64,000 nucleotides of DNA from Spirosoma foliorum. GTDB taxonomy: Bacteria > Bacteroidota > Bacteroidia > Cytophagales > Spirosomataceae. Where the stretch lies: NCBI RefSeq assembly GCF_014117325.1, contig NZ_CP059732.1:4167001-4231000 (forward strand), written 5' to 3'. A program made the position numbers and the translations under genes. Every line of letters starts with the position of its first letter. Position 1 is the first letter of the stretch. Of this stretch, positions 22,162 through 60,568 are shown in pieces. Below the pieces are notes generated by a model. It had not been told where the DNA came from and searched no databases. It was given only the letters and a program-made list of their open reading frames with translations.

Positions 22162-22223
22162 AGTAACGCGGACATCCTGTCCGCTTTTTACCTGATAAGA
22201 GCGGACAGGATGTCCGCGTTACT
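22162..22223. repeat. GCGGACATCCTGTCCGC palindromic repeat
   Basis: Two arms (22162-22185 and 22200-22223) are perfect reverse complements over 24 nt. The right arm ends 4 nt before the FAH-family start codon. A related GCGGACTGGAAGTCCGC repeat lies at 25473-25535. Confidence 0.9.
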
Positions 22224-25475: not shown

Positions 25476-25535
25476 CGCGGACTGGAAGTCCGCCTTTATC
25501 TACCAATTGCTACAGCGGACTGGAAGTCCGCGCTA
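25473..25535. repeat. GCGGACTGGAAGTCCGC repeat pair
   Basis: Two copies of the small palindrome GCGGACTGGAAGTCCGC (7-bp stem, 3-nt loop) lie at ~25477-25493 and ~25515-25531. The block begins at the bcp stop codon and ends 5 nt before the transketolase ATG. Confidence 0.9.
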
Positions 25536-25539
25536 CTTT

Positions 25540-26397
25540 ATGGAAATCGAACAACTCAAAAGCACGGCTACGGCCGTTCGGCGCGATATTCTTCGCATGG
25601 TTGCCGCTGTTAATTCGGGTCACCCCGGCGGATCATTAGGCTGCACCGATTTTTTGGTCGCCCTCTATTTCGAGGTAATGAACCGAAAAAAAGATGCGGA
25701 TGGTAATCCTATTTTTGACATGGACGGCCGGGATGAAGATATCTTCTTCCTCTCGAATGGGCACATTTCGCCAGTGTTTTATTCGGTGCTTGCGCGGGCA
25801 GGTTATTTCCCGGTTTCTGAATTAGCCACCTTCCGCAAGTTAGACAGTCGGCTACAAGGGCACCCTACCACGGCTGAACACCTGCCGGGTATCCGCATCG
25901 CGTCGGGTTCATTGGGACAGGGTTTATCGGTAGCAAGTGGTGCCGCTTATTCCAAAAAACTCAACGGCGATAAAAGCCATGTATATGTGCTAATGGGAGA
26001 CGGTGAGCAACAGGAAGGCCAAATTTGGGAAGCAGCTCAGTTTGCACCCAATAAAAAACTTGGCAACCTGACCGCCATCATTGACCTCAACCACGCACAA
26101 ATTGACGGTACGACCGACAACGTAAACAGCAACCGCGACCTGGCTGCCAAATACCGCGCCTTCGGCTGGTACGTTGAAGAGATGGAAGGTAATGACATTG
26201 CCGATGTGATTCATACGCTTAAGAAATCACAGGAAGACCCCGATGTTCCAACGATGATTCTGATGCACACCGAAATGGGCTTCGGCGTTGAATACATGGT
26301 GGGCAACTACAAATGGCACGGTACGGCTCCTAATGCTGAGCAATTAACGCAAGCCTTGAACGGGTTGCCATTATCAGTAGGTGTAACGGATTATTAA
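25540..26397 (+). CDS. Transketolase, N-terminal (TPP-binding) subunit
   Basis: A 285-aa protein covering the pyrophosphate-binding half of transketolase. VNSGHPGGSLGCTDF, SNGHISPVFYSVLARAG, ASGSLGQGLSVA and the TPP/Mg motif GDGEQQEGQIWEAA with DLNHAQIDG are intact. The start at 25540 (MEIEQLKS) is used; 25507 lies in a repeat. In many Bacteroidota the partner subunit follows directly. Here 1.55 kb of foreign-looking DNA separates them. Both subunits are needed for sugar two-carbon transfer in the pentose phosphate pathway. Confidence 0.94.
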   Translation: MEIEQLKSTATAVRRDILRMVAAVNSGHPGGSLGCTDFLVALYFEVMNRKKDADGNPIFDMDGRDEDIFFLSNGHISPVFYSVLARAGYFPVSELATFRKLDSRLQGHPTTAEHLPGIRIASGSLGQGLSVASGAAYSKKLNGDKSHVYVLMGDGEQQEGQIWEAAQFAPNKKLGNLTAIIDLNHAQIDGTTDNVNSNRDLAAKYRAFGWYVEEMEGNDIADVIHTLKKSQEDPDVPTMILMHTEMGFGVEYMVGNYKWHGTAPNAEQLTQALNGLPLSVGVTDY

Positions 26398-26402
26398 AAT
26401 TT

Positions 26403-26430
26403 GTAGAGACAAGGCATGCCTTGTCTCTAC
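26403..26430. repeat. GTAGAGAC 28-bp perfect palindrome
   Basis: GTAGAGACAAGGCA is followed immediately by its reverse complement. The identical 28-mer recurs at 60541-60568. It sits between the transketolase N-subunit gene and the AAA ATPase gene. Confidence 0.95.
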
Positions 26431-26437
26431 GTATATT

Positions 26438-27412
26438 ATGAAAATCAAACGCCTGGTCATAGAAAATTTCAAGTCCATTGAGCGGATCGAGCTTATTGAG
26501 CCGAATCCGTTTACGGTCTTTGTCGGCCCTAACGGGTCGGGCAAGTCGAATATTTTCGAGGCTTTGGAGTTTTTCGATCTAGTATCTCAATATAAAGACG
26601 CTAGCAGTTTATTTGGCGGGTTGGATAGTATAAGGAGAAAGCAAAACACTACTGCAGAATTTAGACTCTCTTATGAACTAGAAAAATTCCTTATTGAACG
26701 TGATAATTCTATAGAGACAACGACTTACAATTTTAAGTCTGAAGAAGATAGCGCTCTTACTATTGAAGAAAACACAGGAAGAATTTCTTACAAAGATCAA
26801 GAGTTTCAGCAGTTTCTTAATTTCTCCCGAATTTTTGTCGGCAATAAAAATAGGTTGGAGCGTAATGATAATAAACGCCTATCATTATCTGCGAGTAATC
26901 TTGAAAAAGTATTGAAGCGAATTTTGTCCGATAATACTTTAAAAAATGAAATCTTCGAGTGGCTTGAACTATTCGTTCCAGAGTTCAAAGCCGTTGAAAT
27001 CGACGATCGAGATGAGTTACATTGGTTTGAGGAGTTTGCTCCAAATTATTTTACCAAGGACTTAATTTCTGACGGTACATATAATATTCTGGCTCTACTC
27101 ACTGCTGTCTATCAAAGCGACGATAAGCCTCAATTCCTGTGTATTGAAGAGCCTGAAAATGGCCTACATCCACAAGTTGCACGGGAATTAGTTGATTTCT
27201 TCCGAATCATGTGTGAGGAGCGTGGGCATCATATCTGGTTGAATACTCATTCGCAATCAATGATAGCCAGGGTAAAGCCAGAAGAAATGGTTATCGTTGA
27301 TAAAAAGCAAGGCACTACTCGAATTAAGCAGATTTCAAAAGAGGAATTTAAAAATTGGCGGATGGACGAAGCCTTACTAATGAATGCTTTCGGAGGTGGG
27401 CTTGCGTGGTAA
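26438..27412 (+). CDS. AAA family ATPase (AAA_15/21, OLD/RloA-like)
   Basis: A 324-aa SMC/ABC-like ATPase without transmembrane parts. MKIKRLVIENFKSIE then Walker A GPNGSGKS (residues 30-37), Walker B FLCIEEPENGLHPQ (~231) and the H-region NTHSQSM (~269) are all present. The middle holds a long, divergent helical insertion. The C-terminus ends in MNAFGGGLAW and overlaps the next gene, starting at GTG 27406, by 7 nt. DNA composition is visibly more A/T-rich than the flanking transketolase genes, suggesting transfer. Such ATPases pair with nuclease-like effectors in anti-phage modules; that role is inferred here. Confidence 0.88.
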   Translation: MKIKRLVIENFKSIERIELIEPNPFTVFVGPNGSGKSNIFEALEFFDLVSQYKDASSLFGGLDSIRRKQNTTAEFRLSYELEKFLIERDNSIETTTYNFKSEEDSALTIEENTGRISYKDQEFQQFLNFSRIFVGNKNRLERNDNKRLSLSASNLEKVLKRILSDNTLKNEIFEWLELFVPEFKAVEIDDRDELHWFEEFAPNYFTKDLISDGTYNILALLTAVYQSDDKPQFLCIEEPENGLHPQVARELVDFFRIMCEERGHHIWLNTHSQSMIARVKPEEMVIVDKKQGTTRIKQISKEEFKNWRMDEALLMNAFGGGLAW

Positions 27413-27978
27413 AGGTTGGTTTTATTTGTGAAGGTAAAACGGAACAAGAAATTATTGAATCAAGCAATTTTCAAGATTGGCTTGATCGAAATGGCTTAAG
27501 ATGTGTTAATCCTGTTTTCGATGTTGCTGGAAGTGGTAATCTGTTGCCTCATCGCCTGGGAGATATTCGGGATACACTATTTAGGAATGGAGCCAATGTC
27601 ATTGTTATTATAACTGACCTCGATCAAGATCAGTGTATTACAGTAACACGTCAGCGTATAACTCAACAAGATAATCAAGTTGTGATTATTGCTGTAAAGC
27701 AAATTGAATCTTGGTTTCTAAGTGATTCAACTACTTTACGTAGGCTGTTTTCAGATAATGCATTTGAGTTTAGTAATCCAGAGGCAGAGAACAATCCATT
27801 CGCTACTTTAAAGCGCTTGTTTGAATTAAAAACTGGTCGAGGTATCGGAACAAAACCAATGTTGGCTCGACGCATGTTGAAATACGGCTTTACCATCGAA
27901 AATGCAGCTCAACATCCAAATTGCCCTAGTGCCCACTATTTTCTAACTAAATTGCAAACCCTCGCTTCGGCGAATTAA
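27406..27978 (+). CDS. DUF4276-like/TOPRIM-type protein paired with the AAA ATPase
   Basis: 190 aa from GTG 27406, overlapping the ATPase stop by 7 nt (GTGGTAA), which implies translational coupling. Key acidic residues of a TOPRIM-like fold are visible: CEGKTE (E9, E13), TDLDQD (D71, D73, D75) and IESWF (E101). This matches the pattern of DUF4276/RloB-type proteins. The C-terminal third (GIGTKPMLARRMLKYGF) is consistent with the same family. A metal-dependent nuclease activity is plausible but not shown. The gene ends only 5 nt before the transketolase C-subunit ATG, so the pair sits inside the operon. Confidence 0.8.
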   Translation: MVKVGFICEGKTEQEIIESSNFQDWLDRNGLRCVNPVFDVAGSGNLLPHRLGDIRDTLFRNGANVIVIITDLDQDQCITVTRQRITQQDNQVVIIAVKQIESWFLSDSTTLRRLFSDNAFEFSNPEAENNPFATLKRLFELKTGRGIGTKPMLARRMLKYGFTIENAAQHPNCPSAHYFLTKLQTLASAN

Positions 27979-27983
27979 TAGAC

Positions 27984-28937
27984 ATGAAAAAATACGAATA
28001 CACAGAGAAAAAAGACACGCGGTCGGGTTTCGGCGCGGGTATATCTGAACTAGGCCGAACGAATCCTAATGTGATCGCTCTGACAGCCGATCTGGCTGGC
28101 TCACTCAAGCTGGAAACGTTCATTAAAGAATATCCTGAACGCTTCGTTCAGTGCGGTATTGCCGAAGCTAATATGATTGGTGTGTCGGCGGGTTTGACCA
28201 TTGGTGGCCATATTCCGTTTGCAACGACCTTCGCCAACTTCGCTACGGGTCGCGTATATGACCAGATTCGTCAGTCGGTAGCGTATTCAAACAAGAATGT
28301 GAAGATTTGCGCTTCCCACGCCGGTTTGACGCTAGGCGAAGATGGGGCAACTCACCAGATTCTGGAAGATTTGGGCATGATGAAAATGCTGCCCAACATG
28401 ACCGTTATCAATCCCTGCGATTATAACCAAACCAAAGCGGCTACCATTGCTATTGCGGAGCACGTTGGTCCAGTTTACCTACGCTTCGGTCGACCCGTGA
28501 TTCCGGTGTTTACACCCGCCGATCAGAAATTTGAAATTGGCAAGGCATGGACGGTAAACGAAGGTAAAGATGTATCGATTTTCTGCACAGGTCACCTGGT
28601 TTGGGAAGCCATCAAAGCGGGCGAAATCCTGGCTGAACAGGGAATTGACGCCGATATTATCAATATTCACACAATTAAGCCGTTAGATGTAGAGGCCATT
28701 CTGGCATCGGTGAAGAAAACCGGCTGTGCTGTATCGGCAGAAGAACACATGCTTAACGGTGGTTTAGGTGATAGCGTTGCACAGGTTCTGTCGCAAAATT
28801 TCCCTGCCCCACTGGAATACATCGGCGTTCACGATACCTTTGGCGAAAGTGGTACACCCGACCAGTTAATGCAGAAATATGGCCTGACTGCCGACAAAAT
28901 TGTTGAGCAGGCGAAAAAAGCAATAGCAAGAAAATAG
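27984..28937 (+). CDS. Transketolase, C-terminal (pyrimidine-binding) subunit
   Basis: A 317-aa protein with the PYR and C-terminal domains. TRSGFGAGISELGRTNPNV at the start, the catalytic-site region RFVQCGIAEANMIGVSAGL, ASHAGLTLGEDGATHQILED, and the C-terminal EEHMLNGGLGDSVAQVL are typical of the split transketolase partner. It forms a heteromeric enzyme with the protein encoded at 25540-26397. The gap to the preceding DUF4276-like gene is 5 nt. Confidence 0.94.
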   Translation: MKKYEYTEKKDTRSGFGAGISELGRTNPNVIALTADLAGSLKLETFIKEYPERFVQCGIAEANMIGVSAGLTIGGHIPFATTFANFATGRVYDQIRQSVAYSNKNVKICASHAGLTLGEDGATHQILEDLGMMKMLPNMTVINPCDYNQTKAATIAIAEHVGPVYLRFGRPVIPVFTPADQKFEIGKAWTVNEGKDVSIFCTGHLVWEAIKAGEILAEQGIDADIINIHTIKPLDVEAILASVKKTGCAVSAEEHMLNGGLGDSVAQVLSQNFPAPLEYIGVHDTFGESGTPDQLMQKYGLTADKIVEQAKKAIARK

Positions 28938-57227: not shown

Positions 57228-57255
57228 GTAGAGACAGGGCATGCCCTGTCTCTAT
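57228..57255. repeat. GTAGAGACAGGGCATG palindrome
   Basis: A near-perfect 28-bp palindrome of the GTAGAGAC family (the last base differs), between cluster 2 genes 4 and 5. Confidence 0.92.
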
Positions 57256-60540: not shown

Positions 60541-60568
60541 GTAGAGACAAGGCATGCCTTGTCTCTAC
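60541..60568. repeat. GTAGAGAC 28-bp perfect palindrome
   Basis: Identical to 26403-26430. It lies between the two minus-strand membrane-protein genes, just downstream of the DoxX stop. Confidence 0.95.

Follow-up and report, generated by a model that had tools for sequence, protein, structure and literature searches.

Among the described systems closest to the locus reported here, nucleases of the OLD family (classes 1 to 3) are defined by an ATPase and a TOPRIM domain in one polypeptide, and PARIS (AriA/AriB) encodes the two separately (both PMC10568477). In other bacteria, putative sensor parts of conflict systems are diversified by diversity-generating retroelements (DGRs), according to a further paper (PMC10907252). 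The present analysis concerns two genes, encoding an ABC-type ATPase and a DUF4276 protein, that lie between the two transketolase subunit genes in a stretch of 64,000 nucleotides (nt) of the Spirosoma foliorum genome, referred to as the window. Both proteins have their best profile matches in HEC-01, a candidate system in PADLOC, the name of which stands for Hma-embedded candidate. The term 'HEC' was not found in the available part of the PADLOC paper's text (PMC8565338), and the one relevant mention of HEC-01 found in the literature is a system label in a list (PMC12724379).

The pair is interpreted as a resident two-gene immune cassette in which a hypervariable module of the ATPase (V) is replaced in place and a folded 5′ arm restrains translation, a reading to which a probability of roughly 0.6 is given. 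None of the papers listed by the literature searches describes this locus, and no mention of DUF4276, alone or with AAA_15, was found; most subscription papers lie outside the literature searched, and novelty is therefore relative to those searches.

The gene pair and its address

The ATPase gene (26438..27412, + strand) encodes 324 residues with the Walker A motif GPNGSGKS. Its best profile match is HEC-01A (PDLC04176; E 7.2e-89, 297 bits), which is matched by all 38 of the ATPase relatives aligned, and it also matches AAA_21 (E 4.1e-28). The structure model (predicted local distance difference test score 86) has PtuA, SMC, and OLD as best Foldseek matches, and a profile of the ATPase matched an OLD sequence in the PDB (6p74, E 1.2e-13). 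The adjacent gene (27406..27978, + strand), which starts with GTG at 27406, is matched best by HEC-01B (PDLC04191; E 3.9e-66) and encodes a predicted TOPRIM-type nuclease. It scores 29.7 bits against DUF4276 (PF14103), where the curated cut-off is 30.2 bits; 33 of its 39 aligned relatives match DUF4276 at E <= 0.001 and two of the 39 match OLD-like_TOPRIM. Several of the 49 loci named in the analysis were omitted from these alignments (38 ATPase rows, 39 DUF4276 rows) due to stops, cut ends, or distance. The structure model of the second protein has a TOPRIM fold, aligning best with the TOPRIM domains of OLD and GajA. Of the TOPRIM acidic residues, E8 and D70 are invariant in the 39 rows and D72 is nearly invariant in the 24 rows from the genus, with E in several distant rows (judged by eye). 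A search of solved-structure sequences with this protein returned three matches up to E 1, none of them credible. Residues are numbered here from codon 27409, one lower than in an earlier interpretation made from the DNA alone (the sequence-only reading), its D71 and D73 being D70 and D72. That reading had proposed an AAA_15/AAA_21 ATPase with a DUF4276/TOPRIM-type partner, which the HEC-01 profile matches and the TOPRIM fold bear out. Its suggestion of RloB was not upheld, RloB being absent from the three Pfam matches of the second protein up to E 1.

The two genes overlap by 7 nt (GTGGTAA) and split the transketolase N-terminal subunit gene (TKN, 25540..26397, + strand; Transketolase_N, E 2.7e-47) from the C-terminal subunit gene (TKC, 27984..28937, + strand; Transket_pyr, E 2.2e-41, and Transketolase_C, E 4.8e-30), with 5 nt between the DUF4276 stop and the TKC ATG at 27984. 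Nothing other than these two same-strand genes lies between the transketolase genes in the window. The split, overlap, gap, and Walker motif had all been read correctly from the sequence, as had the A/T-rich composition of the pair, which is 38.6 % GC versus 50.2 % for TKN and 48.4 % for TKC. Of the 24 Spirosoma genomes that carry the pair, 22 were measured and in all 22 it is GC-poorer than both flanks; the spacer between the pair and the TKC start is 3–45 nt in the 22 that were laid out. On the constant expression, tied to central metabolism, that the sequence-only reading supposed, a promoter scan says little: the Bacteroidota motif is absent at the locus and occurs once in the window against 1.84 expected, which is chance level. 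Rfam has no match in 26200–28200 up to E 1.

Genome comparison shows that many members of the family carry the pair at the same site between the transketolase genes, a site from which it is often absent and sometimes visibly lost or broken. The DUF4276 gene is present in 24 of 36 Spirosoma genomes, each time directly upstream of TKC. The pair is absent from 11, and the one further genome (G025) has no transketolase match. A threshold of E <= 1e-3 yields matches in 80 of the 222 family genomes searched, of which 71 are strong (E 1.4e-44 or better; 24 within the genus and 47 outside) and nine are weak matches to other DUF4276-like proteins. A transketolase gene stands beside the pair in all 71 strong-match genomes, a count joined by hand from several searches and in which only one side is seen at contig ends. 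Named hosts include Larkinella, Arsenicibacter, Flectobacillus, Emticicia, Fibrella, Fibrivirga, and Lacihabitans. In G204, DUF4276 and TKC are separated by a hydrolase gene, and the copies in G153, G161, and G205 are broken by stops. In an order-wide sample of 291 genomes, matches at E <= 1e-20 were found in 15, all from this family. Sixteen of the 49 named loci have no transketolase in the surrounding DNA examined, several of these being on short contigs; hosts of such loci include Thiomargarita, Neisseria, Sulfurimonas, and metagenome-assembled genomes of Bacteroidota. Viral contigs gave 16 matches, the best long one 36 % identical and two short N-terminal ones 43 % identical.

On a transketolase tree of 34 of the 36 genus genomes (G024 and G025 excluded) and two of Larkinella, presence changes eight times, at least six of them forced, and effector type, assigned by eye, changes 10 times. 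At least three of the 11 empty sites retain remnants (an ATPase 5′ piece in G017 and, judged by eye, the DUF4276 3′ end in G008 and G020), and these three are therefore losses. The empty sites that the sequence-only reading expected in related genomes are thus present, although at least three are secondary. It had held that defence cargo would be doubtful were the insertion found in one place in all relatives, with no empty site and normal composition. Empty sites do exist and the composition is unusual, but the site is fixed across the family.

Other observations concern transketolase genes and the spot between them. The S. foliorum genome has a second transketolase N/C pair (G000:C1:7561293-7563099), 67 % and 78 % identical to that of the window, with 22 nt between the two matches and no genes inserted there. 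In other genera a Uma2-family putative endonuclease gene occupies the spot (L160:1846-2436 and L157:2036-2629), alone in G126 and upstream of the ATPase in G200, therefore the spot accepts other cargo. A metagenome-assembled genome titled Spirosoma fluviale (L124, CAMCYZ010000075.1) has transketolase genes only 66–77 % identical to those of the window. The locus of S. fluviale DSM 29961 (L117) has 94 % transketolase identity, and the title of L124 looks wrong.

Exchange of modules within the cassette

Comparison across the genus used 22 of the 24 pair-carrying genomes, without G024, where a contig end truncates the ATPase, and G026. G032, in which TKC carries a frameshift, was not used for comparisons with TKC or for Mantel tests, leaving 21 genomes; its TKC match (L095) lies in two reading frames, split at residue 219/220, either from a frameshift or an assembly error. 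A further genus comparison took in 23 genomes, without G024.

Parts of the cassette have been exchanged in place, but not the 135-nt arm at its 5′ end or the short one at its 3′ end, which are constant. Mean amino-acid identity in the ATPase is 0.96 over codons 1–45 (5′ constant arm, 26438..26572, + strand), 0.33 over codons 46–165 (V, 26573..26932, + strand), 0.78 over 166–239, and 0.65 over 240–324 (C-terminal module, 27155..27409, + strand). In the DUF4276 protein it is 0.45 over residues 1–155 and 0.93 over the last 16 residues, which with the stop codon form the 3′ constant arm (27928..27978, + strand). Synonymous sites are conserved in both arms. Distances in the ATPase C-terminal module track those of DUF4276 residues 1–155 (Mantel r 0.64, p 0.002), whereas those in V do not (r 0.10, p 0.17). 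Against transketolase distance the correlation is 0.17 for V (p 0.02), 0.09 for the C-terminal module (p 0.11), and 0.10 for DUF4276 (p 0.15); a little ancestry therefore remains in V. By these sequence comparisons the cassette is a mosaic in which V, the proposed sensor surface, is replaced between species independently of an effector module made up of the ATPase C-terminus and the first ~155 residues of DUF4276.

Individual pairs of genomes show the same. Between G001 and G021, for example, identity per 60-nt block is 0.85–1.00 all the way from TKN to TKC and drops, to 0.38, only in V. G014 and G021 share V (0.68) and have different effectors (0.34), and G000 and G003 keep both ends while the whole inside differs. 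V was replaced with the effector kept in three of six further pairs, from Flectobacillus (L108/L110), Larkinella (L105/L106), and Leadbetterella/Lacihabitans-like genomes (L124 and L122). Of the other three, L106/L146 has no V replacement, L104/L105 differs over the whole inside, and L126/L143 differs in the spacer, V, and partly the rest. Detailed alignment of the four V replacements puts the 5′ breakpoint at nt 133–141, with a variable 3′ limit. The V of the window recurs at 68–86 % identity in three other proteins with different C-terminal modules (104 candidates searched, four matches including the window itself). Likewise, effector types cross genera; in their first 160 residues, two Larkinella proteins (L104 and L098) share 75–76 % identity with proteins of Spirosoma. 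V alleles differ in length and in most residues, and no silent V cassettes were seen. Of the 36 genus genomes, 25 have the arm, each in a single copy, and the donors of V are therefore probably other genomes.

Predicted folding of the 5′ arm

Where the amino acid is the same, codon identity between genomes is 0.81 in the arm, 0.53 in TKN, and 0.54 in TKC, the arm being higher in 231 of 231 pairs against TKN and 210 of 210 against TKC. For any 45-codon window the maximum is 0.60 in TKN and 0.63 in TKC (a third of pairs used). In each of four genomes the folding energy of the arm is below that of all 300 synonymous recodings. The arm has z-scores of −3.6 to −5.4, compared with a mean of −0.13 (standard deviation 1.27) for 142 other 135-nt windows from these genomes. 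The lowest of these (−3.2) overlap the arm; away from it the minimum is −3.0, within a TKC. Recoding with the codon usage of each locus was extended to 67 distinct arms from 90 found. The mean z is −4.47 (−7.1 to −1.5) in 52 arms resident at transketolase genes and −0.10 (−1.7 to 1.6) in 15 HEC-01 arms from other loci, therefore the two ranges barely touch. Under dinucleotide-preserving shuffles, a harder control, 12 transketolase-resident arms range from −1.75 to −6.03, that of the window has −2.46, and eight arms from other loci range from −2.25 to 0.84. Among the 35 open reading frame starts of the window, that of the ATPase has the lowest z (−4.0; next −2.4). The sense strand is the more unusual (z −4.43 versus −2.85 for the antisense; lower in 47 of 52 arms) and 10 % of its pairs in the arms are G-U.

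In the Spirosoma/Larkinella group the predicted shape is an outer stem enclosing two hairpins, with 95 % of cells paired and double changes in five of 50 pairs. In the window the left side of the outer stem (26447..26470, + strand) pairs with the right side (26548..26572, + strand), which ends where V begins. The inner hairpins lie at 26472..26519 and, over the P-loop codons, at 26520..26544, both on the + strand. In other genera the arms also fold strongly, although their codons differ and so, in part, do their pairings; what is claimed is therefore a conserved propensity to fold, not one fixed structure. When 23 arms were combined in an RNAalifold consensus, the first inner hairpin was largely lost and covariation was scant, and an inverted-repeat finder found none in the arm, the stems being interrupted. 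The 135-nt window at the DUF4276 end is ordinary (z −0.7 to 1.5 in four genomes) and no RNA is claimed for the 3′ arm. The arm is predicted, then, to have a conserved folding propensity that is strongest on the sense strand, which suggests a previously undescribed mRNA element inside the ATPase coding sequence. The position of the predicted fold at the ATPase start suggests that translation may be held down.

Interpretation and related systems

The 28-bp perfect palindrome that the sequence-only reading placed at the upstream edge of the pair does exist (26403..26430, no strand assigned), however it is a dispersed repeat and probably incidental. The window has two exact copies and one near copy of this GTAGAGAC palindrome, this one included, the others being at 57228–57255 and 60541–60568; genome-wide there are four exact copies, and a relaxed pattern finds five places. 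Inverted repeats resembling GTAGAGAC occur in many relatives' spacers at the same locus. Palindromic repeats of the GCGGACTGGAAGTCCGC type lie 5′ of TKN (25477–25531, two exact copies 38 nt apart), with two divergent copies near 22.2 kb (22168–22217). As a site-specific insertion edge the palindrome is ruled out by its dispersed copies and by the different repeat, or none, in other occupied species.

In the proposed mechanism, the OLD/PtuA/SMC-like ABC ATPase would sense a phage-made trigger through V and then unleash the TOPRIM protein, which would cut nucleic acid and abort the infection. Changing phages would select replacement of V, presumably through homologous recombination with incoming DNA from related bacteria, for which the constant arms and the transketolase genes could supply the homology. 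The folded 5′ arm would act as mRNA just behind the start codon, keeping translation of a potentially toxic pair low despite its housekeeping operon. Translation is probably restrained by the pair's own coding RNA. More tentatively, and with rather less than even confidence, the locus may be an immune locus fixed at one metabolic address, with its sensor module swapped and an intragenic RNA element of 45 codons, resembling a three-way junction, that throttles or conditionally releases translation and ends where new sensor modules paste in.

It is somewhat unlikely that the arm acts at the DNA level instead, letting V be swapped either as a recombination hotspot that forms a hairpin or purely as a homology arm. 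The detailed V replacements do start directly behind it, species differ less in the arm than in the flanks, and the antisense strand is also over-folded, but the greater excess on the sense strand and its G-U pairs favour RNA. Near the last codon of the arm, the constraint that the P-loop helix places on the protein also ceases, and the breakpoint therefore needs no special DNA. A role in transketolase or central metabolism, for example as an operon regulator, would fit the linkage to one operon across the family and the close spacing to TKC. It is nonetheless improbable, given the patchy presence with its repeated changes on the tree, the hypervariable replaced module and effector types, and best profile matches that are defence systems. 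In addition, the second transketolase pair of the same genome is without the two genes, and Uma2-family genes occupy the spot in two other genomes read.

Recent insertion of mobile defence cargo with the palindrome as its edge, as the sequence-only reading had it, is very unlikely, although the low GC and the 11 genomes without the pair would agree with it. The site and strand are the same in every strong-match genome of the family, at least three empty sites carry remnants, the palindrome is dispersed, only the two genes lie between the transketolase genes here, and the viral matches are distant. The idea of a small anti-phage module in a housekeeping operon holds in that the pair resembles a defence module by sequence and lies at a housekeeping locus, on the same strand and with short spacers. 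What does not hold is that it had recently jumped in, as it has long resided at this site across the family and has repeatedly been lost or had modules replaced inside it. Diversification of V inside the cell, by a DGR or silent cassettes, would account for its extreme variability, and DGR-diversified putative sensors are described elsewhere (PMC10907252), but here it is hardly credible. Alleles of V are unequal in length and unlike at most residues, there is one copy of the arm and no silent cassette, similar V modules recur across species and effector backgrounds, and no reverse transcriptase was seen by eye among the open reading frames at 22–32 kb, where no profile search for one was made.

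Defence genes are usually pictured as cargo moving between islands. In contrast, the candidate system described here keeps a single place in the core genome throughout a family, and what is exchanged there is the part likely to serve recognition, in a manner reminiscent of typing loci such as hsdS. If the resident-cassette reading is true, it is a natural case of bacterial immune genes updated where they sit. With such a folded arm a dangerous pair could be kept quiet although its operon is a housekeeping one; the arm would also show that regulatory RNA can be concealed in the synonymous sites of defence genes. At this locus natural pairs such as G001 and G021 differ almost only in V, and could serve to link V to phage specificity.

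Of the known systems, HEC-01 is the closest, as both proteins match its profiles best and the genes are adjacent. It differs in that the pair here is transketolase-resident with mosaic exchange of V, and has a strong 5′ fold that was not found in the 15 relatives from other loci. OLD-family nucleases and Gabija GajA also combine an ABC ATPase with TOPRIM, but here these are two separate genes, outside the one-polypeptide definition of OLD classes 1 to 3, and the immediate neighbours are transketolase genes, without a GajB-like (UvrD-like) helicase. PARIS shares the separate ATPase and TOPRIM genes, and the ATPase scores 102 bits against an AriA profile; HEC-01A outscores it at 297 bits, however, and no AriB is found among the 17 matches of the second protein up to E 1. 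Likewise, AbiLi of the AbiL system matches the ATPase at 89 bits, but for the second protein AbiLii comes up only at E 0.013 (14 bits). The DGR-diversified antigen sensors are similar in that putative sensor parts of conflict systems are diversified, by targeted hypermutation in that case, whereas here whole modules are replaced, apparently from other genomes.
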